Source: Mesotoga sp. BH458_6_3_2_1 (GTDB taxonomy: Bacteria > Thermotogota > Thermotogae > Petrotogales > Kosmotogaceae). Taken from it: a stretch of DNA of 64,000 nucleotides. Below are positions 9,718-26,521 of this stretch, piece after piece. The translations under genes and the position numbers were made by a program. The DNA lies in the NCBI RefSeq assembly GCF_003664995.1, contig NZ_JFHL01000026.1, positions 62,001 through 126,000 of the forward strand. Reading direction: 5' to 3'. Numbering within the stretch: the stretch's first letter is position 1; every line of letters begins with the position of its first letter. A model generated the notes under the pieces. That model ran no database searches and was not told where the DNA came from. It saw only the letters and a program-made list of their open reading frames with translations.

Positions 9718-11580
9718 ATGGAACAGTGCGTCCTGGACATCAAAGAACTAAGCAGCAATAATTCGGGCAATATCAATCTCAAGGAGATCAATCTGGAAGT
9801 CAACTCTTCCGAAGTTCACGCACTTGTGGGGGAGTATGGCGCCGGAAAGGAACTTGTCGTCAGCATCCTCACTGGAGCTGAGAAGAAGATTTCCGGGAGA
9901 GTATTTTTTGATGGAATAGATGTTACGGGCAAAATGAAGGTTGGAGGTTCGACAGATGTTCTGTTCCTCCTTGAAGAACCGATGGTCGCAGAGGGTTTGA
10001 CCGTGGCGGAGAACATGTACGTGTTGAGGAGTCATAGCAATGTGATCAAACTGATCAACCATTCAAAGATAAATCGTGCTGTGAAAGAGCTCATTGCAAG
10101 ATTCGACCTCGGCATTTCAGAGAAGACTCACGTGTATAAGCTTTCTACCGAGGAGAAGAAGCTTATAGAGCTTCTGAGACTGTGTATTTACGAGCCACGG
10201 CTAGTGGTTCTGTATGAACCCACTGCTAATCTTGGCTCCAAGTCTCAGGACCTTCTTCTTAGAATACTGAATGAACTTAAGGGGAAGGGGACTGGAATAC
10301 TTTACGTTACAAATAAGTGGGACGAGGCACTGAAGTACTCAGACAGAATCAGCGTTCTGTCGGAGGGAGTGCTTTGCGGAACTCTAAGCTCAGAAGAGGC
10401 AAAAGACAAGCCGGAGAAGCTTTTGAAACTTATACTTGGCTGGAAGAAATCAGATTCAACGAAACGCGAGGCCGAGGAAATAGAAACCGAAGATATAATT
10501 GATGCAGTTTTGAGGGCGGCCGAGTACCTTACTTCGAACTATGAAATCAACGATGTCTTGAAAATGCTTGAAAATTATACCTGCAAGATAATGGAATCTG
10601 ATTCGTGTTATGTGTACCTGGTTGACGAAAAGACCAGGACAATCATGGATACAATAAAACATAAGGAAACCGAGTCAATAGAAGCCGTTCTCAACGATGA
10701 AGTTGTTATGCGAATAATGGACAACAAGAAGCTATTTGTTTCCAATTTTGACGATGTTCTCTTCGAAAAGCTCTTCAAGAGCATTCGAAATACCGAGACA
10801 ATCGTTTGCGACCCAGTCTCCGTTAGATCTCACCACACCGCTTTGTTTCAGGTGGGCTATCGTAAATACTATGAACCAAATGAAAAGCAGAAGAAGATAT
10901 TTCATACGCTCTCGAGGCAAGTCGCTCTTGCAATAGATAATACGAGACTTATGGGAAGCTCGGTGCTGCTTCAGGAAAGTCACCACAGGATAAAGAACAA
11001 CCTTCAGACTATTGTAAGTCTCATAAATATTCAGAAAAGGAGTTTCGAAAAAAAGACAGACAACGAAGTCGAGGATCTGCTGGACAATGTCGTTTCCAGG
11101 GTGAAAAGCATAGCCGCCGTTCATGATCTCCTTTCTAACGACGAACTGGGCAGAAGTATAATAAACCTGAAGAGTCTTGTAGATACTATCGTACGTTTCA
11201 ACATAGTTGACGGCACTCTCCAGGTAAGGAAAGATCTTGACGACATCTTCATACCGTACGACAAAGCTAGCGGAATCTCACTGACAATAAGCGAACTGAT
11301 AAACAATTGTGTGAAACACGCTTTTAAAGATATTGATAGCGGGTTGATATCGATTTCCTGCAAGAGCTTTGACGATAATGTGGAAATAATCGTGGAGGAC
11401 AACGGCGCGGGATTTCCCAACAGATCCTTTTCAGCAAAAGACGAGAAACTGGGGCTTTCGCTTGCGAGATCCATCGTCGAGAATCAGTTCGACGGTACTC
11501 TTGAGATCGCCTCGGAAAAAGGAGCAAAAGTAAAGATCTTAATTCCAAAAGAGAGCCTGTTGCTCACGAGAGGCTCATAA
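9718..11580 (+). CDS. Hybrid sensor kinase: degenerate sugar-ABC ATPase domain, GAF, HisKA_2, HATPase
   Basis: A 620-residue cytoplasmic protein with no membrane segment. Residues 1-235 align in pattern with the first nucleotide-binding domain of CUT2 sugar ABC ATPases but lack key residues. The Walker A reads GEYGAGKEL (~38-46) where GxxGxGKST is expected. The signature loop reads LSTEEKK (~142), and Walker B reads LVVLYEPT (~162) with Tyr replacing Asp. Residues ~255-410 look like a GAF domain. Next is a HisKA_2 dimerisation/phosphoacceptor motif, ESHHRIKNNLQ (likely His422), then an HATPase_c domain with ELINNCVKHAF (N box) and DNGAGF. HisKA_2 kinases are known partners of ANTAR regulators, and one follows 51 bp downstream. 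I infer that the pseudo-ATPase docks on or senses the adjacent sugar transporters. ATG 9718 has AGAGGGG upstream. Confidence 0.85.
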   Translation: MEQCVLDIKELSSNNSGNINLKEINLEVNSSEVHALVGEYGAGKELVVSILTGAEKKISGRVFFDGIDVTGKMKVGGSTDVLFLLEEPMVAEGLTVAENMYVLRSHSNVIKLINHSKINRAVKELIARFDLGISEKTHVYKLSTEEKKLIELLRLCIYEPRLVVLYEPTANLGSKSQDLLLRILNELKGKGTGILYVTNKWDEALKYSDRISVLSEGVLCGTLSSEEAKDKPEKLLKLILGWKKSDSTKREAEEIETEDIIDAVLRAAEYLTSNYEINDVLKMLENYTCKIMESDSCYVYLVDEKTRTIMDTIKHKETESIEAVLNDEVVMRIMDNKKLFVSNFDDVLFEKLFKSIRNTETIVCDPVSVRSHHTALFQVGYRKYYEPNEKQKKIFHTLSRQVALAIDNTRLMGSSVLLQESHHRIKNNLQTIVSLINIQKRSFEKKTDNEVEDLLDNVVSRVKSIAAVHDLLSNDELGRSIINLKSLVDTIVRFNIVDGTLQVRKDLDDIFIPYDKASGISLTISELINNCVKHAFKDIDSGLISISCKSFDDNVEIIVEDNGAGFPNRSFSAKDEKLGLSLARSIVENQFDGTLEIASEKGAKVKILIPKESLLLTRGS

Positions 11581-11631: not shown

Positions 11632-12225
11632 ATGGACAATTCTTTAAACATACTTATTGCAGAAGACGAGTACATAGTCCTGAGAGGTCTTAAGGAAACA
11701 CTAATTGGCCTCGGTCATAAAGTTATAGGAGAGGTTATGGATGGAGAGACATTTGTGAAACTGGCACTTGAAACGGATCCAGACTTACTGATAGTAGATG
11801 TAAACCTACCCGCACTAAGCGGAATCGAAGCGATTGAAAGAATTGGAAAAGTGAAACTCGTACCCTCGATAATCGTTACGGGTTACAGCAGCGAAGAAAC
11901 CGTTAAGCGCGCGAACTCTGCAGGGGTCTTCAACTATCTCGTAAAACCCGTTGATGAGAAGGAACTCAAGCCCGCAATTGAGATTGCTATGGGTCGATTC
12001 AAAGAGTTCATGCTTCTCAAAAAGGAGCTCCATGAGCAGGAAGAAGCTCTAGAGGCTAGAAAACTTATAGAAAGGGCTAAAGGGATTTTAATGGACCGTA
12101 ACGGAATCAGAGAGTCAGAGGCAATGAAGTTGCTACAGAAGATCAGTAGAGACAGGAATTTGAAGCTCGTTGCAGTTGCAAAGGAAATCATAGAAGCCGA
12201 CAACACTTTGCATTACGGAATCTAG
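11632..12225 (+). CDS. Response regulator with ANTAR RNA-binding output (transcription antiterminator)
   Basis: A 197-residue two-component regulator. The REC domain (1-120) has the acidic pair EDE (11-13), phospho-acceptor Asp56 in LLIVDVNLP, a TGYS segment and Lys in YLVKPVDE. A coiled linker leads to an ANTAR domain (~135-190) with the typical RAKGILMDRNGIRESEAMKL helix and a following helix of conserved pattern. ANTAR proteins of the EutV/NasR/AmiR type bind paired hexaloop hairpins in nascent mRNA and prevent terminator formation. The hybrid kinase directly upstream is the likely phosphodonor. Matching leader structures occur at 12386-12468 and 21197-21285, so both sugar operons are likely targets. 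AAGGGG precedes ATG 11632. Confidence 0.92.
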   Translation: MDNSLNILIAEDEYIVLRGLKETLIGLGHKVIGEVMDGETFVKLALETDPDLLIVDVNLPALSGIEAIERIGKVKLVPSIIVTGYSSEETVKRANSAGVFNYLVKPVDEKELKPAIEIAMGRFKEFMLLKKELHEQEEALEARKLIERAKGILMDRNGIRESEAMKLLQKISRDRNLKLVAVAKEIIEADNTLHYGI

Positions 12226-12385: not shown

Positions 12386-12468
12386 TTGCGGCGATACTTA
12401 TGGTTGGTATTGCTTAGCAAAGGAAGATAAAGGTTATGGGTGCCTGATTACTGCAGGCACCCTTTTTT
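12386..12468 (+). promoter_or_regulatory. ANTAR-type two-hairpin antiterminator leader plus terminator (first sugar operon)
   Basis: Hairpin P1 has stem GCGATACT (12391-12398) pairing with GGTATTGC (12406-12413); an outer TTGC/GCAA pairing extends it to 12386-12420, and its loop contains ATGGTT. P2 has AGGT (12431-12434) pairing with GCCT (12442-12445) around a loop with ATGGGT. Both loops have A at position 1 and G at position 4, the conserved ANTAR contacts. A strong terminator, GGGTGCCTG (12438-12446) with CAGGCACCC (12454-12462) and TTTTTT, shares its 5' arm with P2, so P2 and terminator exclude each other. The element lies between the regulator gene and the cupin-led operon. Pairings were worked out by eye. 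Confidence 0.85.
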
Positions 12469-12557: not shown

Positions 12558-13196
12558 ATGGCAGTAGTTGATGTAAAACTGGAAAAACTGAGTGAAGTAA
12601 GTATGAGAGATTTCAGTACCTTTGGCAGAATCATTGGTAGAGATGAAGACACGGAAGAAGGCAAGTATGAGTTGCATCCCGTGGACGCAAAAGCCGCAGT
12701 CGAAAATAGCATGATCAAGGCTTACTGGGATCTAGTTCCTTTCAAGGACAACAAAGAAGACCGATTCTCAATGGGAATGCTTTTCGTTTATCCAAAGCCA
12801 ATAGGGGAAATCCTTAACTGGACAGAAGTTCATTATGAAACTCTTGAGTTCTTTTTCCCTCTGGGTGGAAAACAGTTCATATTCGTTCTTGCGCCGAAAT
12901 CGAAGATCCCCGAAGCCGAAAAGACCAGAGCCTTCCTTATAGGACCGAATGAAGGAGTCCTTCTGAACAAAGGGACATGGCATTACCCGCCTTTCGCAAT
13001 TGATGGTCCTACCCCCGTTTTGATGCCTCGCTTTGGAAAACTTGGAGAAATCACGGGCGACGTAACCGAGGCCTATGGAAAGAAATGGGAGACTCCCGTT
13101 GGAAACCGTTATTTCAAAGGACAACTGCACGCATTGAAGACCGATTACTACGGCGAAGGTTACGGAGGCGAATACAAGATAAGAATCATTCTTTGA
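12558..13196 (+). CDS. Ureidoglycolate-lyase-like (AllA family) cupin protein
   Basis: A soluble 212-residue protein resembling the AllA cupin family: a central HYETLEFFFPLGGKQFIFVLAP strand pair, then GVLLNKGTWHYPPFAI, where the buried His and Trp-His resemble the AllA active-site region, and a closing LMPRFGKL. AllA enzymes cleave ureidoglycolate. No other purine-degradation gene is present, and this gene leads a sugar-transport/kinase operon, so I expect a related lyase, isomerase or mutarotase-like step on a sugar or sugar acid. GGAGGAGAG precedes ATG 12558, directly after the antiterminator leader. The fold family is likely; the activity is inferred. Confidence 0.7.
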   Translation: MAVVDVKLEKLSEVSMRDFSTFGRIIGRDEDTEEGKYELHPVDAKAAVENSMIKAYWDLVPFKDNKEDRFSMGMLFVYPKPIGEILNWTEVHYETLEFFFPLGGKQFIFVLAPKSKIPEAEKTRAFLIGPNEGVLLNKGTWHYPPFAIDGPTPVLMPRFGKLGEITGDVTEAYGKKWETPVGNRYFKGQLHALKTDYYGEGYGGEYKIRIIL

Positions 13197-13293
13197 TTCC
13201 TTTGTTTGAAGGGAGGTTGGCACAAAGAAAAAAAGCTATTCGTGTGAATGTTTCGATCTATGAGAGTACTTCTTTTGAAGGAGGATGGTACAG

Positions 13294-14646
13294 GTGAAAA
13301 AGCTCAGTGTTCTGTTAATTGTTGTTATTGCTTTGTTTGGTGTTACTGCACTTTCAACGGAAACAATGGTATGCACGTATTCACAGATGGCAAACGACTT
13401 CTTCCTTACCTTTGACAAAGGCGCAAGGGAGGCTGTCGAGGCTCTTGGAAACATGTACATAGCAGCCAGCGACGACAGGAGCCCCGAAAAGTTCCTGTTC
13501 CAAATCGAGTCTTTCGCTGCCGCCGGTGTCAAGATGATATTTGGTTACTCCCCAACAATCGAATCTGTTATTCAGGCATCGAACTTCGTTAACAGAGAGA
13601 AAGTCTATTACGCAAACATTCTCGAGATAGCCGACTGGTGGACTCCGCTGGATGCAGGCCCATACTACGGTCAATTCATTGGACCTGACGCTTATGTCGA
13701 TGGTTATCTTGGCGGACTAGAAATGGGCAGACTTCTCAACGGAGAAGGCGAGACCTGCATTCTCTGGGGATTCCCCGGTTCCAAAGCAGGTAACGACAGA
13801 GCAAGAGGTTACAAATCCGCTCTTATGGAGAACTTCCCGAACATCACGGTTATCGGTGAGGAATATGCAGACTTCATAAGAGACAAGGGATACTCTGTTA
13901 CCAAAGACTGGATCGCAAAGTTCGGTGACAGGATAGACGGTATTTTTGGCACTGCGACAAGCATGAATGTTGGCGCGGCAATTGCCTGTGAAGAGGCCGG
14001 ATTGGACCATGTTTTCCAGGTCACAACCGACGCTAACAAGTCCAACCTCGTCGATATCCAAGATGGAAGTCTCGACGTTGTCGCTGGAATCTACGGATTC
14101 TGGATGGCCGGAAGACAGGCCGTTACTGTATACGACATGAAGAACGGCTGGAAACCAACCATTCCTGAAACGATGATGTCAACTATGCAGACCTTCATTA
14201 CTCCTGAAAACGTTGACTGGTACATCGAGACTTTCGGACAGGAAGGACCATACGACTACGACTGGAAGATGATGTCAAGAACGCTTCATCCAAACGACTG
14301 GGATCCACAGGGTCTTCTCGTTCCGATATACCCAGAGAGATTCACCAACTGGATTTACCTAGACAAGCCCAGGGGTTACGAAGTTCCCAAGGAATACAAG
14401 GACGCTATGGAATCCGGTCTTTACCAGGAGATCTACGAGCTTTACCTTGACAAGTTCACCGCTGCATGGGTTGTCCCTCCATTCGAGAGCTCCCCATACA
14501 ACTACGTATTCGTAGCGAACAACCTGGAAGAGGGTCTCAGAGCAGATATCGTTAAGAGAATGGAAAACGATGTGCTTGTTCATGAAGTGATTGACGTTCC
14601 TTACCGCTTTGATATTCCGGGTTTTGGAGAAGGATGTAATAACTAA
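13294..14646 (+). CDS. Sugar ABC transporter substrate-binding protein (CUT2 type)
   Basis: An exported periplasmic-binding protein of the Peripla_BP_4 class, about 450 residues. The signal peptide is VKKLSVLLIVVIALFGVTAL. Two lobes follow, with recognisable RbsB-like segments such as FDKGAREAVEALG, FGYSPTIESVI and DGIFGTATSMNVGAA. It is longer than RbsB (about 300 residues) because of a roughly 100-residue C-terminal extension rich in Trp and Tyr. GTG 13294 is preferred over ATG 13285, since AAGGAGG ends at 13284, touching the ATG but 9 nt from the GTG. It is the second gene of the operon and feeds the two permeases and the ATPase downstream. Confidence 0.85.
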   Translation: MKKLSVLLIVVIALFGVTALSTETMVCTYSQMANDFFLTFDKGAREAVEALGNMYIAASDDRSPEKFLFQIESFAAAGVKMIFGYSPTIESVIQASNFVNREKVYYANILEIADWWTPLDAGPYYGQFIGPDAYVDGYLGGLEMGRLLNGEGETCILWGFPGSKAGNDRARGYKSALMENFPNITVIGEEYADFIRDKGYSVTKDWIAKFGDRIDGIFGTATSMNVGAAIACEEAGLDHVFQVTTDANKSNLVDIQDGSLDVVAGIYGFWMAGRQAVTVYDMKNGWKPTIPETMMSTMQTFITPENVDWYIETFGQEGPYDYDWKMMSRTLHPNDWDPQGLLVPIYPERFTNWIYLDKPRGYEVPKEYKDAMESGLYQEIYELYLDKFTAAWVVPPFESSPYNYVFVANNLEEGLRADIVKRMENDVLVHEVIDVPYRFDIPGFGEGCNN

Positions 14647-14683
14647 GCACCTTATGATTCTAAAAAAACACTTTTGAATGCTG

Positions 14684-14725
14684 GAGTAGACTGTTCCAGC
14701 TCACAGGGAATCAGTCTACTCTTTC
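14684..14725 (+). other. Intra-operon hairpin between binding protein and permease genes
   Basis: GAGTAGACTG (14684-14693) pairs with CAGTCTACTC (14712-14721), and the stem continues inward with TTCC/GGAA around one bulge. It is followed by TTTCT. Such structures after binding-protein genes commonly protect the upstream mRNA or cause partial termination, giving more binding protein than membrane subunits. Confidence 0.7.
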
Positions 14726-14732
14726 TGGAAGG

Positions 14733-15717
14733 ATGAGGAATTTGGCTCTCAAAAATCTCTTGAAAAAAGGACTTAAAACAGAGAACCTTATTGAAGTACT
14801 TCCTTACTTCTTGCTTGCTGGAATCTTTGTGTTTTTCGCAATCTCATATCCGCCGTTTGCAAGAATAAGGAACATCACAGGCATTCTGACAGTCTCGAGC
14901 GTCTTCCTTCTGGTGGCCGCCGGAGAGACTTTTCCCATACTCATGGGGAGCATAGATCTCTCTGTGGGCGCCATGCTTTCATCGTCAGCGATTGTTGCCG
15001 CTTACTTCTTTCCTCAGGGTGGATTAGGGATGATAGTTCTTGCGATAGTCGTAGGATTCCTTTCGGGACTGGTTAACGGTCTACTGGTAGTACTTCTGAA
15101 ACTTCCGTCTTTCATCGTTACACTGGCGATGATGTATGTCTATGTGGGAATAGCTACTGGTCTAACAAATGGTTATAACATATCCATTAGAAACAGGGAC
15201 TTTGCCTGGATTTCGACGGGACAGATGATTGAAGGCATTCCAAACGTCATTATTTGGTCTCTGATAGTATTTGCAGTTTTCGTATTCATAAGCAGGAAGA
15301 CAGTAGTGGGAAGATACATTTTGGCAATAGGAAGCAACGAAGAATCCGTGAAGAAAATGGGAATCAACACCAATAAATACAGGATAATCGCGTTTATGTT
15401 TTCAGGCTTGTTGGTTGGCATTGCCTCGGTTTTGCTCTCTTCATTATCTGGGAATGGCCCCGTCCAGACTTGGAGACAAATATCTCTTCAATACTCTGAT
15501 AGCCGTCGTTGTAGGTGGAACTTCTATCATGGGAGGTTCCGGTGGTTTAATGAAGACACTCATAGGGGTTCTTCTCATCAGTATGTTCGATAATGGAATG
15601 AGTCTAATTGGAAGTACATCGAATGTACAGAACATTGCAAAAGGTATACTGTTAATCGCCGCAATTTCACTCGTAATGCTTCCTCACAGAAGAGGAAGAT
15701 TACTTCTTACTAAGTAG
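14733..15717 (+). pseudogene. Sugar ABC transporter permease (CUT2), frameshifted
   Basis: A RbsC-like inner-membrane permease split by one frameshift. The first frame (14733-~15452) encodes the N-terminal part including MGSIDLSVGAM and VNGLLVVLLKLPSFIVTLAMM. It runs out of family similarity after LSSLSG and stops at 15593. The second frame resumes at GMAPSRLGDKYLFNTL and continues through VVVGGTSIMGGSGG to 15717. Removing one G from the GGG run at 15450-15452 joins the halves into a normal ~327-residue permease. The rest of the operon is intact, so a sequencing error or very recent mutation is as likely as decay. The start lies after a GGAAGG site. Confidence 0.85.
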
Positions 15718-15735
15718 GCAGGGAGGTGGATGAAG

Positions 15736-16692
15736 ATGGATAATCAAAACAGGAAGCTAAAGTTCTCACTTTCTAAGTTATGGACTCCCTTACTGCTTGT
15801 GGTTTTGTTCTTGATATTCGGTTTGCAGTATCCTACGTTCTTGTCCGTAAAGAACTTCAACAACTTGCTCGTACAGATGGCTATTCTGCTGATTGCATCG
15901 ATGGGCATGTCCATGGTCGTTCTGATGGGAAGCATAGATGTCTCTGTCGGAGCGACGATAACGATTACCGCCGTGGCTTCTGCAATGGTCAGCTCGGCAC
16001 TGGGTGGAGCATCGATTGTCGTGGGGATGCTAGTGGGGGCTCTGGTAGGTCTGATAAACGGTCTTCTGGCTACTTTCCTCAAAATTCCGACGTTTCTATC
16101 TACTATCGCTATGATGGGAATCTTAAATGGAACTGCAGTCTTAATACTTAAAGGTTCTCCTTACAACGTCCATTCAGAATCCTTTTTGGCAGTCGCAAGA
16201 GGCAGCTTTCTAGGTGGCATATCGAACTTGATCACTATACCAATCATTGTAGTGCTTATAACCATAATAATAACCAAAAAGACAGTGCTTGGCAGAATGA
16301 TTTACGCTATTGGCAACAACGAGTATGTATGCCAGTATTCAGGGATCAGTGTTGTAAAGATTCAGACTTTTGTATTCATGATTCATGGTTCGCTCGTAGG
16401 GCTAGCCGGTGCTCTTGATGCATCTATGCTTGAAGCCGCTTGCCCATACTGCGGGGATACCTATACCTTGCCAGTGATTGCGATAGTTGTCATGGGTGGC
16501 ATTCCTCTTAGCGGAGGCCGGGGAGGACCAATCGGCACAGTCCTTGGAGCGATGCTGGTTACCGTTCTGATAAGCGGCTTGAATTTCATGGGCGTTACAC
16601 CCGAGTTCAGAAATGTCGCCATGGGCGCTCTAATAATTGCCGGTGCGCTCATGTCCAATGTCGGAAGACCAAAGATAATCACCGTTAAGTAA
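15736..16692 (+). CDS. Sugar ABC transporter permease (CUT2), second subunit
   Basis: An integral inner-membrane permease of ~318 residues with the BPD_transp_2 pattern: MGSIDVSVGATITI near residue 70, VGLINGLLATFLKIPTFLSTIAMM, then a cytoplasmic GRMIYAIGNNEYVCQYSGI loop that contacts the ATPase, and VVMGGIPLSGGRGG near the C-terminus. It has eight or more hydrophobic segments. It pairs with the preceding (frameshifted) permease as a likely heterodimer. ATG 15736 is preferred over ATG 15730 because GGGAGG ends at 15726. An unusual DASMLEAACPYCGDTYT segment, with two close cysteines, sits in the periplasmic loop before the last helices. Confidence 0.88.
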   Translation: MDNQNRKLKFSLSKLWTPLLLVVLFLIFGLQYPTFLSVKNFNNLLVQMAILLIASMGMSMVVLMGSIDVSVGATITITAVASAMVSSALGGASIVVGMLVGALVGLINGLLATFLKIPTFLSTIAMMGILNGTAVLILKGSPYNVHSESFLAVARGSFLGGISNLITIPIIVVLITIIITKKTVLGRMIYAIGNNEYVCQYSGISVVKIQTFVFMIHGSLVGLAGALDASMLEAACPYCGDTYTLPVIAIVVMGGIPLSGGRGGPIGTVLGAMLVTVLISGLNFMGVTPEFRNVAMGALIIAGALMSNVGRPKIITVK

Positions 16693-16737
16693 TCTTTGAT
16701 TCCAATAGGTGAGACAAAGAATGCGAGGTTTATCTGT

Positions 16738-18282
16738 ATGGATGAAAACATAAAAGGAAACAACAAAATCCTCTTCGAGATCAAGGGAATTGAAAGAAGC
16801 TATCCAGGTGTGCAGGCACTAAAGGACGTTACTTTCAATATCAACAGGAACGATGTTATTGGGTTCGCCGGAGAAAATGGAGCGGGAAAGTCAACTTTGC
16901 TTAAGCTGATAGCAGGAGTTGAACCACCCGATAAAGGAGAGATGTTCCTAGAAGGAAAGAAGTATGCTCCTCAAAGCTTCCGGGAGGCCAATACACTCGG
17001 AGTCTCGATGGTCTTTCAGGAGCAGAACCTTGTTCAGAGCCTGACTGTTTACGAGAATCTCTTTCTATCACACGAGAAGCGATTCCAGGTTGCCGGTACT
17101 CTCAAGAAGAGACAGATGATCTCCGAAGCGAAACGTTACCTGGAGAGTTTTGGGCTCGACATCGACCCCAGAAAGGAAGTTTCCCGATACTCTTTTCACG
17201 AGCGTCAGATGCTTGAGATAATCAGAGCGTTTGTTATCGCAGACATGTACAAAGTTCAGACGCCTCTAATACTTCTTGATGAGCCCACCGCGGCGCTCCC
17301 TGAAAAGGAGAGAGAGATTCTCCTTGAAAGAGTGAAAAGCTTTTCGAACAAAGCAACATTTGTATTTGTCTCACATCGGCTTTCAGAATTGATGAATGCC
17401 TGTAACAGGGTCCTGATTCTCAAAGACGGCCAGCTTATAGGAGAAGTGGACCCCGAGCTCTCGGAAGAGAGAGAGATTCACCCGCTCATGGTCGGAAGAG
17501 AGTTGAGCGCCGATACATACAGAGTTGAAGATCAGAAGGAATTCAACGGGGATGAGGACCCTGTTTTGAGAGTAAGAAATCTTTCCAAGAAAGGCCTTTA
17601 CAGCTCCGTTTCTCTGGAAGTGCGTCGAGGCGAGATACTTGGAATAGGAGGCCTCATAGGCTCTGGAAAGAAATTCCTTGGGGAGACGCTCTTTGGAGTG
17701 GACGAACCAACAGAGGGAGAGATAATCATTGACGGACATCCCGTGTCTAAATCAACAATTAGAAACATGACCAAGCTTAGAGTCGGGTATGTGCCTTCGG
17801 AGAGAAAGGAAAACGGAATAATCGGACTGTCAACTGTGGCCGACAATCTCACTATTACCAGATTCGACGAGTTCAGCAGTCGCTTTGGCTTCTTGAACAA
17901 CAAAAAGGAACTCAGACTGATCAAAGAGGGAATAGAGAAATTCCGAATAAAGGCAACAAGCGAAGATCTGTGCTTTTCATTGAGTGGAGGAAACCAACAA
18001 AAAATCGTGTTGACCAAGTGGATTATGAAGAATCTCGACATTCTGATTCTCGACAACCCCACCAGAGGCATAGACATCGGAGCTAAAGAGGAGATATACA
18101 CCTTCATAAGAGAAGCGGCAAATAAGAACCTCGCCATCATCTTAATAACAGACGACTTGCTCGAACTCATTGGATTGAGCAACAGGATAGTCATTATGAA
18201 AGATGGAAACATCTCGCTTATCGTTGATGCTGATAAAAAGCGTAAACCAACCGAGCAAGAACTAGTAAGAGATATGGTATAA
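16738..18282 (+). CDS. Sugar ABC transporter ATPase with two nucleotide-binding domains (CUT2)
   Basis: A RbsA-type double-cassette ATPase of 514 residues that powers the two permeases upstream. Domain 1 has a perfect Walker A (GENGAGKST) and Walker B (LILLDEPTAAL) but a diverged signature (YSFHERQMLEII). Domain 2 has the degenerate Walker A typical of this class (GLIGSGKKF), an intact signature LSGGNQQK and Walker B-like LILDNPTRGIDIG with Asn where the catalytic Glu would be. Both features are usual in CUT2 ATPases. The frame extends to a TTG at 16696, but ATG 16738 begins the conserved region and has GAGG about 10 nt upstream. Confidence 0.9.
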   Translation: MDENIKGNNKILFEIKGIERSYPGVQALKDVTFNINRNDVIGFAGENGAGKSTLLKLIAGVEPPDKGEMFLEGKKYAPQSFREANTLGVSMVFQEQNLVQSLTVYENLFLSHEKRFQVAGTLKKRQMISEAKRYLESFGLDIDPRKEVSRYSFHERQMLEIIRAFVIADMYKVQTPLILLDEPTAALPEKEREILLERVKSFSNKATFVFVSHRLSELMNACNRVLILKDGQLIGEVDPELSEEREIHPLMVGRELSADTYRVEDQKEFNGDEDPVLRVRNLSKKGLYSSVSLEVRRGEILGIGGLIGSGKKFLGETLFGVDEPTEGEIIIDGHPVSKSTIRNMTKLRVGYVPSERKENGIIGLSTVADNLTITRFDEFSSRFGFLNNKKELRLIKEGIEKFRIKATSEDLCFSLSGGNQQKIVLTKWIMKNLDILILDNPTRGIDIGAKEEIYTFIREAANKNLAIILITDDLLELIGLSNRIVIMKDGNISLIVDADKKRKPTEQELVRDMV

Positions 18283-18306
18283 GAATAGCTAAGGTGGTGT
18301 AAAGAG

Positions 18307-19299
18307 ATGAAGAAGCTTATCAATGATCCCAAGAGTGTGGTAATCGAAATGTGTCAGGGAATGGTAAAGGCCTTCCCGGATAATCTCGCACTTAACGAGG
18401 AATTCATGGTGATTTCAAGAAAGAATCCCGACAAGAACAAGGTCATTCTAATCAGTGGCGGAGGAAGCGGCCATGAACCTGCTCATGCAGGGTTCGTAGG
18501 CAAGGGAATGCTTGATGCGGCCGTATGTGGTGATGTCTTTGCTTCACCGTCTGTAATACAGGTTTTCAACGCCATAAAACACAACCATTCGGAGCAAGGG
18601 GTTTTGCTGGTTATAAAGAATTATTCTGGAGATGTCATGAACTTCGAAAGCGCTGCTGCAATGGCTGAAGATTACGATATTAGGGTTGATAGCGTTTGTG
18701 TAAATGATGATATCTCAATCGAAAAAAAGGAAGACAGACGGGGCGTGGCTGGAACGATCTTCGTTCACAAAATTGCTGGAGCTCTGGCCGAAAGGGGAGC
18801 TTCTCTCAGGCAGGTGAAAGAGATCGCCCAAAGAGTTATCGACAATGTTAGAACAATGGGGATTGCACTGACTTCCTGTATAGTCCCAGCAAGGGGAAAA
18901 CCAACTTTCGACCTTGAAGAGGACAAGATCGAGGTTGGCGTCGGAATTCACGGAGAAGCCGGAATATTTAGAGAGCGATTGCTATCAGCTAAAGAAACTG
19001 CCGACCTGATCATTGAAAAAATACTTGGCGAATTATCCGTATCAAAGGAAGAAGAGGTTGCCGTACTGATAAATGGATTCGGTGGAACTCCTCTTCAAGA
19101 GCTTTTCATACTTAACAACGAGGTTGCCTCGATTCTTAAGGACAAGGGAATAGCGGTGGCGAAAACTCTAGTTGGAAGTTATATGACGTCCATAGATATG
19201 GAGGGTGCGTCAATCTCAGTTCTTAAGCTCGACGAGCAGATGAAGAGACTTCTCTCTGCACCCTGTGAAACCGCTGCCTGGAAGGAAACGGAGGCTTAG
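18307..19299 (+). CDS. DhaK-type ketose kinase substrate-binding subunit
   Basis: A cytoplasmic 330-residue homologue of dihydroxyacetone kinase subunit K. The three hallmark residues are present: His in GGGSGHEPAHAGFVG (~residue 58), Asp in KNYSGDVMNFE (~107) and the substrate-linking His in GVGIHGEAGI (~216). DhaK binds short ketoses by a hemiaminal bond for phosphorylation by DhaL. No PTS-type DhaM is in the window, so an ATP-dependent kinase is likely. AAGGTGGTG precedes ATG 18307. The subunit L gene follows after 3 bp. Substrates known for this family include dihydroxyacetone and erythrulose; the one used here is unknown. Confidence 0.9.
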   Translation: MKKLINDPKSVVIEMCQGMVKAFPDNLALNEEFMVISRKNPDKNKVILISGGGSGHEPAHAGFVGKGMLDAAVCGDVFASPSVIQVFNAIKHNHSEQGVLLVIKNYSGDVMNFESAAAMAEDYDIRVDSVCVNDDISIEKKEDRRGVAGTIFVHKIAGALAERGASLRQVKEIAQRVIDNVRTMGIALTSCIVPARGKPTFDLEEDKIEVGVGIHGEAGIFRERLLSAKETADLIIEKILGELSVSKEEEVAVLINGFGGTPLQELFILNNEVASILKDKGIAVAKTLVGSYMTSIDMEGASISVLKLDEQMKRLLSAPCETAAWKETEA

Positions 19300-19302
19300 A
19301 AC

Positions 19303-19947
19303 ATGACTGTAATCTCGAAAGATGAATTCATAGAAATCGTTGGAATCGCTGTCGACTCTATACTGGAAAACGAACAGTACTTCTGTGATCTCGATTCTGT
19401 TGCCGGAGACGGTGATTTTGGAGCTTCTTTGGCGAAAGGCTTCTCTGAAGTCAAGTCAAAGTGGAAGGATCTCGAAAAGAGCAATGTTGGAACCTTTTTG
19501 AGAGACTGCAGCATGATAATAATGGAAAAATGTGGTGGAGCCTCCGGTCCAATCTGGGGCAATGCTTTTTTGAGCGCTTCTAGAGCTTCGAAAGGAAAGG
19601 AGAGTCTCGAAATTGCAGACATCGCCGAACTCTTCCAGGCGATGGTAGATGGAGTACAGAAGGTCGGTAAAGCTGAACTAGGTGACAAAACTCTTCTAGA
19701 TGCGCTTATCCCCTTCAAAGAATCTTTGAAGGAAAGCGCAAAGCTGAATGAACCAATAGAAGCGGCCTTTGAAAAGGCCGTAACCAGAGCAGAAGAAGGA
19801 GCCGAATCTACAAAAACGATTGTTGCGACGAAAGGAAGGGCCAGATATCTGGGCGGCAGGAGCATTGGCGCATATGACGCGGGTGCTAGAGCGGTTGCAG
19901 TCATTCTCTCAGATATTCAAAATCGCTTCTTCAACAAAACGAAGTGA
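19303..19947 (+). CDS. DhaL-type ketose kinase nucleotide-binding subunit
   Basis: A 214-residue DhaL (DAK2) homologue providing the ATP and Mg site for the adjacent DhaK. The metal-binding aspartates are in VAGDGDFGASLAKG. KCGGASGPIWGNAF is the nucleotide-binding loop, GDKTLLDALIPF carries the conserved Asp of the lid region, and GRARYLGGRSIGAYDAGA closes the family pattern. The gene begins 3 bp after dhaK, so it is co-transcribed and probably translationally coupled. Together the pair forms a likely two-component sugar kinase acting on the solute imported by the transporter encoded upstream. Confidence 0.9.
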   Translation: MTVISKDEFIEIVGIAVDSILENEQYFCDLDSVAGDGDFGASLAKGFSEVKSKWKDLEKSNVGTFLRDCSMIIMEKCGGASGPIWGNAFLSASRASKGKESLEIADIAELFQAMVDGVQKVGKAELGDKTLLDALIPFKESLKESAKLNEPIEAAFEKAVTRAEEGAESTKTIVATKGRARYLGGRSIGAYDAGARAVAVILSDIQNRFFNKTK

Positions 19948-21196: not shown

Positions 21197-21285
21197 TCCT
21201 TCGCGCTCATGGTTGGTGCGATGGAAAAGCATAGAGCTTAGAGGTTATGGGTGCCTTGAGTTATGGGGCACCTTTATGCTTTTTT
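21197..21285 (+). promoter_or_regulatory. Second ANTAR-type two-hairpin leader plus terminator (second sugar operon)
   Basis: This repeats the architecture at 12386-12468. P1: CGC-TC (21204-21208) pairs with GG-T-GCG (21215-21220, one bulged T) around loop ATGGTT. P2: AGGT (21242-21245) pairs with GCCT (21253-21256) around ATGGGT. The loops are identical to those of the first leader and have A1 and G4. The terminator uses GGTGCC (21250-21255) with GGCACC (21267-21272), sharing its 5' arm with P2. An outer AAGCATA/TATGCTT pairing (21227-21233 / 21275-21281) runs into a T tract ending at 21285. It precedes the GATase1-like gene by about 95 bp. Confidence 0.82.
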
Positions 21286-21379
21286 CTTTGAGAATTTGAT
21301 CACAATTTTGCATTAATGAAGAATTTTTCAAATAAAGGCCCGTTGGTGACCTAATTCAAAATCAAAAGGAGGTATTTTC

Positions 21380-22129
21380 GTGCTTAAAGTATTCTATTGT
21401 GGAGATCAGGTAATGCTGATCACAACGTACGTAAAAGGTATGAATTCCTGGACAGATGGAGTTGTACATGATGAAAGTTTCCATCTGAGAAAGGCTCTTG
21501 AATCGGATTCTGAAATCGATCTGACTTACTTGCCTACAAGCGAGGTCCAGAGAAACTTCCCGAAGCCGGACGAGCTTGGACAGTACGACGTGATACTTTT
21601 CAGCGACGTTGGTACAGATACGGTAATAATGTACGAAGACAGATTTAACAACTGCCCCATGGGGGTCGACAGACTTGGTGCACTGAAGAAATGGACGCGT
21701 GATGGCGGCGGCTTCTGTGGTGTAGGCGGCTGGCTATCCTTTGGAGGCATGTTTGGAGTAGCCAAGTGGCACAAGACTCCCGTTGAGGAGATACTTCCCG
21801 TCACCTGTTATCCATACGACGACAGAGTCGAAATTTCCGAAGGTATGACTCCTAAAGTCCTCAAGAAAGACCATCCGATCTTCAAGGGAGTAGACTTCGA
21901 TTCGGCTCCCCCTCTCTTCTCCGGATACAACGAAGTAAAGGCAAAGCCCGAAGGAGAAGTCCTGGCAGAACACAACGGAGATCCAATAATCGTGACCGGT
22001 CAGTATGGAAAGGGTAGAACGCTTGCATTCGCAACCGATCCAGCTCCTCACTGGGGCCGCGGGATGGTCGAATGGAAGGATTACGGTCAATTCTGGGTAA
22101 ATGTGGTGAAGTGGCTTGGAGGCAAATAA
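21380..22129 (+). CDS. GATase1/ThuA-like cytoplasmic protein
   Basis: A 249-residue protein of the glutamine-amidotransferase-like (ThuA/COG5426-type) fold. It has an early VFYCGDQ strand, QYDVILFSDVG, a DGGGFCGVGGWLSFGG turn at the nucleophile-elbow position with Cys near residue 115, and a closing VTGQYGKGRTLAFATDPAPHW. ThuA-type proteins occur widely in sugar-utilisation operons, but their reactions are mostly unproven. GTG 21380 has AAAAGGAGG upstream. It is the first gene of the second antitermination-controlled operon, 2 bp before the second dhaK. It probably acts on the same sugar pathway; the exact role is unknown. Confidence 0.75.
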   Translation: MLKVFYCGDQVMLITTYVKGMNSWTDGVVHDESFHLRKALESDSEIDLTYLPTSEVQRNFPKPDELGQYDVILFSDVGTDTVIMYEDRFNNCPMGVDRLGALKKWTRDGGGFCGVGGWLSFGGMFGVAKWHKTPVEEILPVTCYPYDDRVEISEGMTPKVLKKDHPIFKGVDFDSAPPLFSGYNEVKAKPEGEVLAEHNGDPIIVTGQYGKGRTLAFATDPAPHWGRGMVEWKDYGQFWVNVVKWLGGK

Positions 22130-22131
22130 CC

Positions 22132-23136
22132 ATGAAGAAGATCATTAACTCCACTGACAATTTGATCACGGAAATGCTCGATGGAATTGTTATGGCCTTC
22201 CCAAAGGATTTCAAGAGAGTCGAAGGCTTTGACAAAGCCTTGATCACACCAAGAGCACCCGTGAAAAACAAGGTAGGCATCGCAACCGGTGGCGGTTCAG
22301 GTCACCTGCCACTCTTCCTGGGATATATTGGCGAAAACCTTCTCGACGGCGCCGCAGTCGGCGACGTATTCTCATCGCCTTCGGCCGAGACTATGCTTGC
22401 GATCACAAAGGTTATCGACAGCGGGAAAGGCGTTCTCTATTTGTATGGAAACTACGGCGGAGACATCATGAACTTCGACATGGCCGCAGAAATGGCAGAA
22501 GAAGAGGGAATCCGGGTTGAAACGAGTATCGGTTGTGACGATGTGGCATCGGCCCCGGCAGATGATGCCGGTTCAAGAAGAGGAATAGCAGGGCTGATCT
22601 TCGCATATAAGATTGCCGGCGCAAAGGCTGCCACGGGTGCCTCTCTTGAAGAAGTAAAAGAAACAACCGACAGAGCTCTGAATGTTATCAGAACAATGGG
22701 AGTCGCCCTTTCACCATGCACGATTCCTGCAGTCGGATTGCCTACTTTTGAGATTGGCGATGATGAAATGGAAATCGGAATGGGCATTCATGGAGAGCGA
22801 GGTATAAAGCGTGAAAAACTCAAGAGTGCCGACGAGATTGCTAGTTTCATGACGGGGAGAGTAATCGACGATCTTCCATTCGAATCGGGAGACGAGGTTG
22901 CAGTGCTTATCAACGGGCTAGGTGCGACAGCACCTCAGGAACTCTATGTTACCTTCAGAAAGGTCAAGGAGATACTCGATCTGAAGAAAATCAATATATA
23001 CAAGTCATTCGTGGGAGAATACGCAACTTCAATGGAGATGAAAGGTCTTTCGATAACTCTCTTCAAACTTGACAGGGAATTCAAAGAGCTCCTAGATATG
23101 CCGGTTCATTCGCCGATGCTTCTGCAGCAATTCTGA
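22132..23136 (+). CDS. Divergent DhaK-type ketose kinase subunit
   Basis: A second DhaK homologue of 334 residues. The catalytic pattern is kept (GGGSGH, GNYGGDIMNFD, GMGIHGERGI), but the first substrate loop reads GHLPLFLGYIG instead of the usual GHEPxHxGYVG. Loss of Glu and of the second His suggests a different substrate from the kinase at 18307. The frame extends back into the preceding gene; ATG 22132 is chosen because it starts 2 bp after that gene's stop with a GGAGG site inside its 3' end. It is followed by its own DhaL partner. Confidence 0.88.
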   Translation: MKKIINSTDNLITEMLDGIVMAFPKDFKRVEGFDKALITPRAPVKNKVGIATGGGSGHLPLFLGYIGENLLDGAAVGDVFSSPSAETMLAITKVIDSGKGVLYLYGNYGGDIMNFDMAAEMAEEEGIRVETSIGCDDVASAPADDAGSRRGIAGLIFAYKIAGAKAATGASLEEVKETTDRALNVIRTMGVALSPCTIPAVGLPTFEIGDDEMEIGMGIHGERGIKREKLKSADEIASFMTGRVIDDLPFESGDEVAVLINGLGATAPQELYVTFRKVKEILDLKKINIYKSFVGEYATSMEMKGLSITLFKLDREFKELLDMPVHSPMLLQQF

Positions 23137-23150
23137 GGGGCGGTGGTCAA

Positions 23151-23795
23151 ATGAAAGAAGCCATTAGTGCAGCAAAGATCTCAGAGATTCTCTTAGGTGC
23201 CTGCAATTCACTTGAAAAGAACCATATCGATGAATTTAGAGCTCTTGACGCTGCCATAGGTGACGGAGATCTAGGCATCACTATAAGAAAGGGCTGTACA
23301 GCGATAATCGAAACACTAAAGACTTTTCAGACTGAGGATACTGGGGCTCTGATAAAGAAGTGTGGAATTCAGTTTAATCAGGCAAATCCCTCCACCTTCG
23401 GAGTTCTGACCGCAAGCGCGTTCATTGAGGGAGGCAAGAAGGTTTCGGGAAAGGAATCTCTCACTCTGGATGAAATCGCCGGTATGTTCAGGGCTGCACT
23501 AGAGGGAATTATGAAGAGAGGAAAGGCAAAGACGGGAGAAAAAACGATGCTCGATGCTCTTGAACCCGCTGTGGAAGTTCTTGAAAAGGCCGCTTCTGAA
23601 GACAAATCGATTAAGGAAGCCTTCGAGAAAGCTGCAGAGGCCGCAAAAGATGGACTGGAAAGAACTAAGGACATGGAAGCAAAGAAGGGTAGAGCGAAAG
23701 CATTCGGCAGCCGCACGGTCGGCGAGCAGGATCCCGGAGCAACAGTTGTTTACCGCTTTCTGAGGGAAGTTTCAGAAGAACTAAACAAATCTTGA
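23151..23795 (+). CDS. Divergent DhaL-type ketose kinase subunit
   Basis: A 214-residue DhaL/DAK2 homologue, partner of the DhaK 14 bp upstream. Metal-site aspartates appear in DAAIGDGDLGITIRKG, followed by GEKTMLDALEPA and GRAKAFGSRTVGEQDPGA. The nucleotide loop is altered: KCGIQFNQANPSTFGVLT replaces the GGxSG-type motif seen in the other DhaL of this cluster. This could change nucleotide handling or coupling. GGGGCGG precedes the ATG. The conserved metal site suggests the pair is still an active kinase. Confidence 0.87.
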   Translation: MKEAISAAKISEILLGACNSLEKNHIDEFRALDAAIGDGDLGITIRKGCTAIIETLKTFQTEDTGALIKKCGIQFNQANPSTFGVLTASAFIEGGKKVSGKESLTLDEIAGMFRAALEGIMKRGKAKTGEKTMLDALEPAVEVLEKAASEDKSIKEAFEKAAEAAKDGLERTKDMEAKKGRAKAFGSRTVGEQDPGATVVYRFLREVSEELNKS

Positions 23796-23809
23796 AAAGG
23801 GGTGAAGGA

Positions 23810-24871
23810 ATGAAGAAGCGTTTTATTATTTCGATTCTTGTAATCATGGTTCTAGCGCTTTCAAGTATGACGTTCGCAGGAACTGAATATGCGAAAGACG
23901 TGACGGTCGCAATCTGTGGGCATGGACTTGAGGCAGAATCCTGTCAGAGAGATTTCCAGCAGGTGAAGATCGAATGCGCTCACAGGGATTGGGAGTTTAT
24001 CGATGCAATGACCGTAAGAGATCCAGCCCAGCAGCGTGAAACTATGGAGACCTTGATCCAGAAGAAAGTAGATGCCATCGTAATCATCTACTGGGACATG
24101 GAAGCTATCGCAGACCTCATTCTCAAAGCAACCGAAGAGGGTATTGGTGTCTACTGTGTTGACACTGAAGTTAAGCCTGGAGTCATTGTCAGTTGTACAC
24201 AGAATAACGCCGTTGCCGGAGCTCTAATGAGTTACTGGGGAATCCAGAGGCTAAACGAGAGAGGGAAAGTGGCGATTTTCAGTGGTAAGTGGCATATTAT
24301 GAGACGAAGAGCCTATGTCGCCGCAACGCTCTTCGAAAGAGATTGGCCGGCCATTGAGCTTGTTGCCGAAGAATTTCTACCTCTCGTTGGATACGAAGAC
24401 AGCGCTTTCAACGTTGCAGTCAACTGGATGACAAAGTATGGAAATGACCTCGACTGGATATTTGCCGGTTGGGACACTCCCGGTCAGTACGCCGCACGTG
24501 CAATTGAACAGGCGGGATTCGACAAGGACGATATTTTCGTTACCGGTATTGATGGAGGTTCGGCCGTTTACTCTATGATAAGAAGTGGATCTCCATTTGT
24601 TGCCACAGTAAGTCAGCCATTCGAATACTACGTTCACACAGTATTTGAAGTCATCAACCAGGTAGAAATGGGAATTGGTCCTGATCATCCAGACTCTCTC
24701 GTACCTCCGGGAAGAGTCATCTATGCAACTCCGTACGTAACAGATGAGACAAATGTTCCCGAACCAGGAAGTTCTATCCACGCTGTTTTTGGTTATTACG
24801 GAATGGATCCCGACGACCCAGATGCATGGTTCAACTGGCAAGACGCTGGCGGTCCATACAAGATTCAGTAA
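23810..24871 (+). CDS. Sugar ABC transporter substrate-binding protein (CUT2), second system
   Basis: An exported RbsB/Peripla_BP_4-type binding protein of 353 residues. The signal peptide is ~22 residues, ending in SSMTFA. The first lobe has VAICGHGLEAESCQRDFQQV and MEALIQKKVDAIV-like RbsB segments, and the second has DWIFAGWDTPGQYAARAIEQ and VTGIDGG. The C-terminal Trp-rich tail is shorter than in the first system's binding protein. The frame opens at TTG 23792 inside dhaL, but ATG 23810 has GGGGTGAAGGA upstream and begins the signal peptide. Confidence 0.87.
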   Translation: MKKRFIISILVIMVLALSSMTFAGTEYAKDVTVAICGHGLEAESCQRDFQQVKIECAHRDWEFIDAMTVRDPAQQRETMETLIQKKVDAIVIIYWDMEAIADLILKATEEGIGVYCVDTEVKPGVIVSCTQNNAVAGALMSYWGIQRLNERGKVAIFSGKWHIMRRRAYVAATLFERDWPAIELVAEEFLPLVGYEDSAFNVAVNWMTKYGNDLDWIFAGWDTPGQYAARAIEQAGFDKDDIFVTGIDGGSAVYSMIRSGSPFVATVSQPFEYYVHTVFEVINQVEMGIGPDHPDSLVPPGRVIYATPYVTDETNVPEPGSSIHAVFGYYGMDPDDPDAWFNWQDAGGPYKIQ

Positions 24872-24889
24872 TCGACCTGCTTTAGAAGC

Positions 24890-24923
24890 CAATATCGGGA
24901 GAGAGAAGCCTCTCCCGATATTG
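24890..24923 (+). other. Intra-operon hairpin after the second binding-protein gene
   Basis: A perfect 14-bp stem, CAATATCGGGAGAG with CTCTCCCGATATTG, has a 6-nt loop and no T tract. It lies between the binding-protein and ATPase genes. As at 14684, the likely role is to stabilise the binding-protein mRNA or set subunit ratios rather than to terminate fully. Confidence 0.75.
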
Positions 24924-24955
24924 ATTCGAGATTACCTGGTGAAAGAAGGTCTAAT

Positions 24956-26455
24956 ATGACGGACAAGAATATTGTTTTGAAGACTGTATCGATATCTAAA
25001 TCCTTTCCGGGGGTCAAAGCCCTGAACAACGTAGACTTCGATTTGCTCGAGGGTGAGATTCATGCTATTTGTGGTGAAAACGGAGCAGGAAAGAGCACTT
25101 TCTGCAATGTCTTGACCGGAATAGTCAGACCTGATGAGGGAAATGTCTTTCTCAACGGTGCGGAAGTGAGACTCACTCACCCTTCCCAGGCCCTCAGACT
25201 GGGGATAAGAATGGTTTATCAGGAGCGGAACCTCATCCCGTATCTCACCGGCGCTCAAAACATCCTTTTGAGAGAGGAACCCGTCAAGGGAGGTTTCCTG
25301 ATAGACGAAAAATCAATTCTTTCAAAGGCAGAAGAACTATCTGAACTCTACAATCTAAGAGTACCTCTCGGCATCCCCGTTGCGCTTCTCAGTTCCGCGC
25401 AAAGACAGGCCATAGAGATTCTTCGTGCTTTCCTCTACAAGCCGAAGATATTGATTCTTGACGAGCCTACTTCAAGTCTTACCGAGTCGGAAGTCAAGTC
25501 ACTGTTCAGTGCAATCCATCAGATAAAAAATGAAGGTGTTTCCGTAATACTAATTACTCACAAACTTGAGGAAGTCTTCGAAAACGCAGACAGGATTTCG
25601 ATTTTCAGAAATGGTGAGCGAGTAACCACAAGGGATAAGAAAGCCCTTTCTGAGGAAGAGGCGATAAGACTTATGGTTAACAGGAATATTTCCAGCCTCT
25701 TTCCCGAAGTGACGGATCATTCAGGGGACACGATACTACAGGTCGAAAACCTTAGCGGTTCGGGATTCCTTAAGGATATTAGTATTCACTTGAAAAAGGG
25801 AGAAGTTCTTGGATTATATGGTCTTATTGGTTCTGGAAGAACCGAGCTAATAGAACACTTGTACGGTCTGAGAGAAACAAAGACCGGCAGAGTAATTGTC
25901 AAAGGCAAAGAAGTCCAGCCTAATGTCCACAAAATGATTGAGAAAGGTGTCTTTCTTGTACCGGACGACAGAAGAGAAAAGGGACTACTTACAAGTTTGA
26001 ATCTGAAGAAGAATTTGACAATATCATATATTAATGAGTTCTCAAAACTCCTTGGAGTTGTCTCGACCAGGAGAGAAAATGCTCTGGTTAAGACCATTCT
26101 TGACAAGAGCTCACTAAGTCTCAAGTACTCGAATATCAATCAGGACGTCCAGGTTCTGAGCGGCGGTAATCAACAAAAAGTCGTAATAGGCCGATGGATC
26201 TCAAAGGATCATATGAGCATATTGATTCTCGACGATCCGACAAATGGAATCGACGTTGGGACGAAGTTCGAAATCTACAAGATGATCAGAAATCTTGCTG
26301 AAGAAAAGAGCGTAGGCGTGATTTTCATTTCTTCTGAACTCCCAGAACTTATAGGAGTTTGTGATAGGCTTTATGTCTTTAAAGAAGGGCGAATCTCTGG
26401 TGAGCTGTCTCGGGAAGAATTCGATGATGAAAAGATATTATCCATGGCTCTTTAA
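24956..26455 (+). CDS. Sugar ABC transporter ATPase with two nucleotide-binding domains (CUT2), second system
   Basis: A 499-residue RbsA-type ATPase. Domain 1: GENGAGKST, signature LSSAQRQAIEI and Walker B LILDEPTSSL. Domain 2: degenerate GLIGSGRTE, intact signature LSGGNQQK and LILDDPTNGIDVG. It energises the single permease encoded next (26522). AAGAAGG lies 7 nt before ATG 24956. Its first domain is a useful comparison for the pseudo-ATPase part of the kinase at 9718: the kinase has lost the Ser/Thr and Asp residues that this protein keeps. Confidence 0.92.
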   Translation: MTDKNIVLKTVSISKSFPGVKALNNVDFDLLEGEIHAICGENGAGKSTFCNVLTGIVRPDEGNVFLNGAEVRLTHPSQALRLGIRMVYQERNLIPYLTGAQNILLREEPVKGGFLIDEKSILSKAEELSELYNLRVPLGIPVALLSSAQRQAIEILRAFLYKPKILILDEPTSSLTESEVKSLFSAIHQIKNEGVSVILITHKLEEVFENADRISIFRNGERVTTRDKKALSEEEAIRLMVNRNISSLFPEVTDHSGDTILQVENLSGSGFLKDISIHLKKGEVLGLYGLIGSGRTELIEHLYGLRETKTGRVIVKGKEVQPNVHKMIEKGVFLVPDDRREKGLLTSLNLKKNLTISYINEFSKLLGVVSTRRENALVKTILDKSSLSLKYSNINQDVQVLSGGNQQKVVIGRWISKDHMSILILDDPTNGIDVGTKFEIYKMIRNLAEEKSVGVIFISSELPELIGVCDRLYVFKEGRISGELSREEFDDEKILSMAL

Positions 26456-26521
26456 ATCGAAGATTGCTAACTGCCAATTCAAGGGTGAATACCTGGAAGG
26501 GCTAGATGAGGAGGATAGGTC

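Follow-up and report, generated by a model that had tools for sequence, protein, structure and literature searches.

A sensor histidine kinase with a dead CUT2-type ATPase domain and candidate ANTAR-controlled sugar-import operons in Mesotoga

Organization of the locus

The window analyzed here is a stretch of 64,000 nucleotides from Mesotoga sp. BH458_6_3_2_1 (contig NZ_JFHL01000026.1, positions 62,001 to 126,000 of the forward strand), and coordinates without a locus name are counted from its first nucleotide. It contains a kinase gene, a regulator gene and two CUT2 operons:

9718..11580, + strand: sensor histidine kinase, 620 aa (ATG start; open reading frame and Pfam domains)
9718..10452, + strand: pseudo ATP-binding cassette of the kinase, CUT2 NBD1-derived (motif loss; predicted ABC fold)
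11632..12225, + strand: response regulator with REC and ANTAR (RNA-binding antiterminator) domains (Pfam), directly after the kinase gene
12558..19947, + strand: candidate target operon 1, a CUT2 operon behind leader 1; ureidoglycolate-lyase-like gene, CUT2 binding protein (13285), permeases (14733, 15730), CUT2 ATPase (16696), DhaK/DhaL-type pair (18307, 19303)
21380..27499, + strand: candidate target operon 2, a CUT2 operon behind leader 2; GATase1-like gene (21380), DhaK/DhaL pair (22138, 23151), CUT2 binding protein (23792), CUT2 ATPase (24956), permease (26522)

The kinase is composed of a pseudo-NBD (residues 1-241), a GAF domain (approximately 278-408), HisKA_2 (420-492, with HHRIKNNLQ) and HATPase_c (518-612). 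Pfam matched ABC_tran at residues 21-170 (E-value 4e-17), HisKA_2 at 420-492 (1e-16) and HATPase_c at 518-612 (4e-13); the latter two were found in all eight family members and were above cut-off in the window protein. GAF was below threshold in the window kinase, and GAF_3 was matched in 7 of 8 family members (best E-value 4e-10). The order ABC-GAF-HisKA_2-HATPase, which the original prediction had assigned to 9718-11580, was therefore borne out by Pfam, with GAF being clear only at the level of the family. HHRIKNNLQ, the N-box and DNGxGFP, corresponding to the phospho-acceptor region and ATP-binding motifs, were conserved in the kinase core, and these features place the protein among predicted HisKA_2 sensor histidine kinases. 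We found no transmembrane segment, the longest hydrophobic stretch having a mean Kyte-Doolittle value of 1.0 compared with 2.6-2.9 in the permeases. The kinase is thus predicted to be soluble and cytoplasmic, and because it lacks a membrane segment it would need a partner to perceive the outside. An AlphaFold model of the whole kinase, built from 8 sequences, was poor (pLDDT 51) and was set aside.

The kinase was the only HisKA_2 protein in the source genome, and the regulator at 11632-12225 was the only ANTAR protein, which argues for a dedicated kinase-regulator pair. Two intact CUT2 transporters had been predicted downstream of the kinase. Both were found, and both lie behind the leader described below, but the frame of the operon 1 permease at 14733-15593 is broken; also, operon 1 has two permease genes (14733-15593 and 15730-16692) and not the single one that had been assumed. 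The break, near the 3' end, results from a one-base length difference relative to the L013 and L014 orthologues (327 aa) and is either a real mutation or an assembly error. Each operon has its own DhaK/DhaL-type pair (18307-19947 and 22138-23795), with no PTS partner seen nearby, which suggests small keto-sugars, such as tetruloses, as substrates.

A degenerate CUT2 ATPase domain

The motifs reported for the N-terminal domain were read correctly: Walker A is GEYGAGKEL, Walker B is VVLYEP, with Tyr in place of Asp, and the signature is LSTEEKK. Further losses were found in the window domain, where the H-loop His is replaced by Asn (YVTNKW) and the Q-loop Gln by Glu. LSTEEKK had also been taken as a mark of a dead ATPase, and this part did not hold, as absence of LSGGQ is normal in CUT2 NBD1; the real CUT2 ATPases of the window also lack it there (LSSAQRQ and YSFHERQ). 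The Walker A Ser/Thr, Walker B Asp and H-loop His were lost in all eight intact family members and kept in each of 23 comparison NBD1s, nearly all of them from CUT2 ATPases. When aligned with this set, the pseudo-domains had E-L, N-A, N-S or K-I in place of the Walker A Ser/Thr, Tyr, Glu or Asp for N40 (fixed in the comparison NBD1s), Tyr or Phe for Walker B Asp166, and Asn, Lys or Arg for H-loop His199, with such replacements of NBD1-fixed residues occurring in all or nearly all pseudo-domains. Newly invariant in the pseudo-domains were EEK at the signature, Trp201 (W201) and Pro232 (P232).

Unlike the CUT2 ATPases, which have tandem NBDs, the kinase has one. The best NCBIfam matches of its N-terminus were the CUT2 ATPases YtfR, AlsA, AraG, MglA and RbsA, in each case over the first half only. 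The eight N-terminal domains were made into an HMM, which scored CUT2 NBD1s at 91-146 bits, CUT2 NBD2s at 55-93 bits and other ABC ATPases mostly at 42-72 bits, except for the single-NBD proteins L070 (123 bits) and L071 (90 bits) and for L072 (97 bits). Given this preference for CUT2 NBD1s, the pseudo-domain most likely descended from the first NBD of a CUT2 ATPase. A recent duplication of a neighboring ATPase was considered and rejected, as the window's own ATPases scored 91 and 123 bits, below several others.

When the window was compared with close relatives, the ABC domain gave dN/dS values of 0.048-0.051 (dS 0.9 and dN 0.04 for the closest relatives), and the kinase core behaved alike. 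Values for the GAF/linker were 0.01-0.08, making it the most conserved region in most comparisons. The original prediction had proposed to compare the predicted structure of the N-terminus with a CUT2 ATPase. An AlphaFold model of the pseudo-domain from 31 sequences reached a pLDDT of 88.7 and a pTM of 0.88, although the alignment contained real CUT2 NBDs, so that the fold was confirmed by homology and not independently. Foldseek matched this model to ABC ATPases at TM 0.72-0.80, including LptB (6mbn, 0.80) and MalK (2r6g, 0.76); the N-terminus is accordingly modeled as an ABC ATPase fold with a RecA-like and a helical subdomain. The proposal of a pseudo-ATPase was thus upheld by motif loss in all 8 homologues, the most distant at 27% identity, and by purifying selection and the predicted fold.

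The most divergent pseudo-NBD, in L016 (10048-10782), has no recognizable P-loop, with FLNSPERK in place of GENGAGKS. It is 30-34% identical to the others, and the core of the same kinase is 66-76% identical to other Petrotogales cores.

Leader RNAs as candidate ANTAR targets

By comparing leaders upstream of kinase-adjacent CUT2 operons, we recognized an element that consists of a hairpin P1, a linker, a hairpin P2 and a terminator, the 5' arm of which contains the 3' strand of P2. The window has two copies:

12391..12413, + strand: leader 1 hairpin P1, hexaloop AUGGUU at 12400-12405; candidate ANTAR target
12431..12445, + strand: leader 1 hairpin P2, hexaloop AUGGGU at 12436-12441; bases in common with the terminator
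12438..12468, + strand: intrinsic terminator 5' of CUT2 operon 1; mutually exclusive with P2
21201..21221, + strand: leader 2 hairpin P1, hexaloop AUGGUU at 21209-21214; covariance-model match
21242..21256, + strand: leader 2 hairpin P2, hexaloop AUGGGU at 21247-21252
21250..21286, + strand: terminator-like hairpin 5' of CUT2 operon 2; overlaps P2, T-run interrupted

Both hairpins are built from a stem, a bulged pyrimidine (U with one exception), a closing Y-G pair and a hexaloop of the form A[U/A/G]G[G/A]NN; P1 of L016 and of L019 deviate from this consensus, the latter with a loop of 8 nt. It has been reported that known ANTAR proteins require A1 and G4 of the hexaloop (PMC3369931, PMC8934654). 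Both bases are present in all four window hexaloops, while in the relatives A1 was found in 14 of 14, G3 was constant and position 4 was G or A. In an alignment of 14 leaders, 7 of 8 P1 pairs had changed on both sides and 97% of cells were paired, and the covariation score was reached by none of 500 shuffles; controls slid along the alignment were only 36-51% paired. This alignment was fitted to the model, and a separate MAFFT alignment agreed with it (5 pairs changed on both sides, 99% of cells paired). The covariation support refers to P1, as variation in P2 was too low for the test. With two hexaloop hairpins and, in leader 1, a P2 that overlaps and would exclude the terminator, the element is a predicted leader of the EutVW kind. 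A search of the window against Rfam at gathering scores gave no match, and the element is thus an additional leader family, without an Rfam counterpart at those scores.

A covariance model trained on first leaders only recovered the second leader, which was not part of its training, at 21199-21278, 5' of operon 2. Across the whole genome the search returned just two sites, one ahead of each window CUT2 operon, and these same two came back when a retrained model was run with laxer filters.

Distribution of the kinase, leader and CUT2 operons

ANTAR was above cut-off in 13 of 103 Thermotogota genomes, 12 times at a locus of this kinase and once at an EutVW-like locus. Three of the 12 kinases were truncated or transposon-cut and one was frame-broken. 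The kinase-regulator pair adjoined a CUT2 operon in six Petrotogales loci (L015-L020), all six with the leader, and every intact Petrotogales kinase adjoined a CUT2 operon bearing it. Of 18 genomes searched, the eight that have an intact kinase all contained the leader, as did G021, which has a frame-broken kinase. The same search did not find it in G022, G024 and G029 (truncated or transposon-cut kinase), in G033 (EutVW only) or in three kinase-free controls. A weak G024 match (E-value 0.55) was dismissed, being in an unrelated setting and not recovered by the better model. Within the genus, genomes with the kinase were exactly those with the operon 1 binding protein (3 of 10). The proposed link to CUT2 transport is therefore strongly supported by the presence of the ANTAR regulator's leader 5' of both CUT2 operons and of the kinase-adjacent Petrotogales ones, and the only homologues without a nearby sugar transporter were copies that had lost the ABC domain or were cut by a transposon.

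In G001, operon 2 has been lost and leader 2 remains as a relic (L083, approximately 674-753; G001 C1 2758173-2758252) ahead of a fasciclin-like gene.

Our survey covered Thermotogota genomes, plasmids and one peptide-pattern scan, and other occurrences may exist. No protein with the full architecture was found among 72,556 plasmids, and a search of public genomes with back-translated peptides returned only a distant kinase, L012. With these being the results beyond Thermotogota, a center of distribution in another phylum was not accepted.

Natural transporter swaps and kinase deletions

Kinase cores of L015, L017 and L018, all from one genus (g9), were 90-94% identical and their ABC domains 77-88%, and the CUT2 systems beside them had ATPases of 41-45% and binding proteins of 20-29% identity. 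At these levels, near-identical kinases stand beside unrelated CUT2 systems, so that the sensor cannot be tuned to one sugar, and whatever it contacts must be something that CUT2 permeases or ATPases have in common. The idea that the pseudo-ATPase competes with the real ATPases on one particular transporter therefore has to be revised, and co-tracking of the pseudo-NBD with transporter type, examined with the same identities, was not seen. A GH35/42-type glycosidase is encoded in L017 and was not found next to the CUT2 genes in L015 or L018. Behind the leaders of L015-L020 the transporter cassettes differ, the kinase pair, leader and downstream sugar-catabolic genes being common, which looks like repeated cassette replacement.

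The L021 kinase has lost the ABC domain and begins at GAF, and there is no CUT2 operon downstream of it. In L022 and L038 the kinase is interrupted by a transposase-like gene; L022 likewise has no CUT2 operon downstream, and the L038 locus is cut by a contig end. Where the ABC domain was deleted or the kinase transposon-cut, the leader was gone. Each joint loss of ABC domain and CUT2 operon in L021 and L022 could be one deletion across adjacent DNA, and these losses are therefore consistent with functional coupling and not independent proof of it. The L022 (9389-11536) and L038 (9403-10109) kinases are broken at different points, by ISL3-type transposase-like genes.

Proposed mechanism and alternatives

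Taken as a whole, these observations are best explained by the kinase and its regulator being a dedicated regulator of CUT2 sugar-import operons, a reading to which we give a probability of about 0.55. At the sequence level, a dead CUT2-derived NBD, an active-looking kinase, an ANTAR regulator and ANTAR leaders before CUT2 operons were established. Sugar-transport operons appear to be the only ones that the kinase and its RNA-binding partner activate, through a block of the terminator. We consider it very likely that the predicted ANTAR antitermination arm acts on the CUT2 operons, and give slightly better than even odds to the transporter being contacted through the dead NBD.

Three steps are inferred, namely that the kinase passes phosphate to its regulator, that antitermination results and that the dead NBD docks on the transporter. 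The two dead NBD1-like domains of a kinase dimer would bind to CUT2 transporters, with the cytoplasmic coupling helices of the permease as the most likely site, and the dimer would thereby read the state of the transporter, for example a loaded binding protein on the permease or a permease without its real ATPase. The signal would pass through the GAF/linker to the HisKA_2-HATPase core, and the kinase would phosphorylate the neighboring REC-ANTAR protein. A REC-ANTAR dimer would then bind the P1 and P2 hexaloops in the nascent leader and stabilize P2 against the overlapping terminator, allowing polymerase to continue into the CUT2 operon; this output half of the model has strong support from the sequence. 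The few transporters that sensing requires would come from a low basal level of read-through. As a speculation, newly made real ATPase might displace the kinase in a negative feedback loop.

Docking is proposed because of the CUT2 ancestry, the conserved fold and the segment from the Q-loop to ENxxL, which remains near real NBDs in the alignment and whose equivalent in LptB (F90/R91/L93) directly contacts the coupling helices (PMC5082905), and because no other link is seen between a soluble kinase and an external sugar. More tentatively, and at less than even odds, two dead NBDs under a CUT2 permease dimer could make the importer and its binding protein a transmembrane receptor signaling via antitermination; with a common CUT2 permease feature being read, any CUT2 transporter could be swapped behind the leader. 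Against the model count G002 and G013, which have leader 2 and in which no kinase or ANTAR protein was detected; both assemblies are fragmented, the G013 contig ending just upstream of the leader and the G002 contig near the operon 1 ATPase gene. Against docking in particular, the pseudo-NBD does not track transporter type, and the highly conserved GAF/linker may hold the real signal input.

The main alternative, which we regard as rather unlikely, is that GAF senses a cytosolic sugar or metabolite and the dead ABC domain is a tether, dimerization or structural module without a role in signaling. It would account for the conservation of the GAF/linker and for the detection of GAF across the family, and it has a precedent in EutW, the kinase of the best-studied ANTAR system, which responds to the small molecule ethanolamine (PMC8934654). 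However, GAF hardly differs between loci whose CUT2 systems are different, which is at odds with its sensing the particular sugar of each operon, and a generic spacer would need neither the strong selection on the ABC domain nor its CUT2 specificity. We consider it improbable that the partners of the pseudo-NBD are the NBDs of the real CUT2 ATPase and not the permease, and that free or idle ATPase is sensed in the manner of MalK controlling MalT: the common ancestry with NBD1 is in line with this, and the signature surface EEK[KR], altered but invariant, could have been adapted to contact between NBDs, but the surfaces of the ATP sandwich (P-loop, signature, D-loop) are the most changed and the P-loop is wholly lost in L016. 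An ABC domain that has kept nucleotide binding and serves to report the energy state, as the P-loop Lys (7 of 8 members) and the Glu following Walker B (8 of 8) might suggest, is very improbable, since the Mg-binding Ser/Thr, Walker B Asp and H-loop His are missing from all members, L016 lacks even GENGAGKS, and the CUT2 ancestry and CUT2-only regulon would be left unexplained.

Relation to known systems

Control of CUT2 operons by a kinase that docks through its dead NBD, the reading we prefer, has several partial parallels. In systems of the BceS-BceAB type, a transporter-coupled kinase has no sensory ectodomain of its own and its regulon is the transporter operon. The likeness is one of analogy, the corresponding features being predicted from sequence here; BceS is a membrane protein contacting the permease, whereas the present kinase is predicted to be soluble, and what it would use is the transporter's motor domain in a dead copy. 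In MalK-MalT, a transport ATPase module controls expression of its own transporter, with the active ATPase sequestering a DNA-binding activator; here the ATPase domain is dead and inside the kinase, and the output would be RNA antitermination. With the NBD1 of CUT2 ATPases (RbsA, AraG, MglA, YtfR) the pseudo-domain has specific sequence kinship and a predicted fold in common, but it is single, catalytically dead and fused to a kinase. A literature search found no description of a kinase with a pseudo-NBD as its input.

A dead motor part, as these features suggest, has been reused to read transporter state. Few molecular links have been defined that would explain how cells sense transport activity itself as opposed to the sugar. 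In the present case the proposed sensor can be recognized as a dead version of the transporter's motor domain, and its regulon in the genome is exactly two CUT2 operons. The relatives offer natural transporter swaps and natural deletions, which make the idea testable.

The output arm is predicted to be an ANTAR system of the EutVW kind in which the hairpin is a variant one. Like EutW-EutV of Enterococcus and Listeria (PMC3369931, PMC8934654), it combines a HisKA_2-type kinase with an adjoining REC-ANTAR regulator and a dual-hexaloop leader with A1 and G4 (in the window loops), P2 overlapping the terminator. It differs in its input (a dead CUT2 ATPase and GAF), in its targets (CUT2 sugar operons) and in its hairpins, which have a bulged U and a Y-G closing pair, with A at position 4 in several relatives and a constant G3. 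ANTAR control would thereby be extended to sugar import in Thermotogota. An EutVW-like locus was also seen in a related genome (L037, 6887-10556), where transposase genes lie between the REC and ANTAR parts of the regulator and ethanolamine-utilization-like genes follow.
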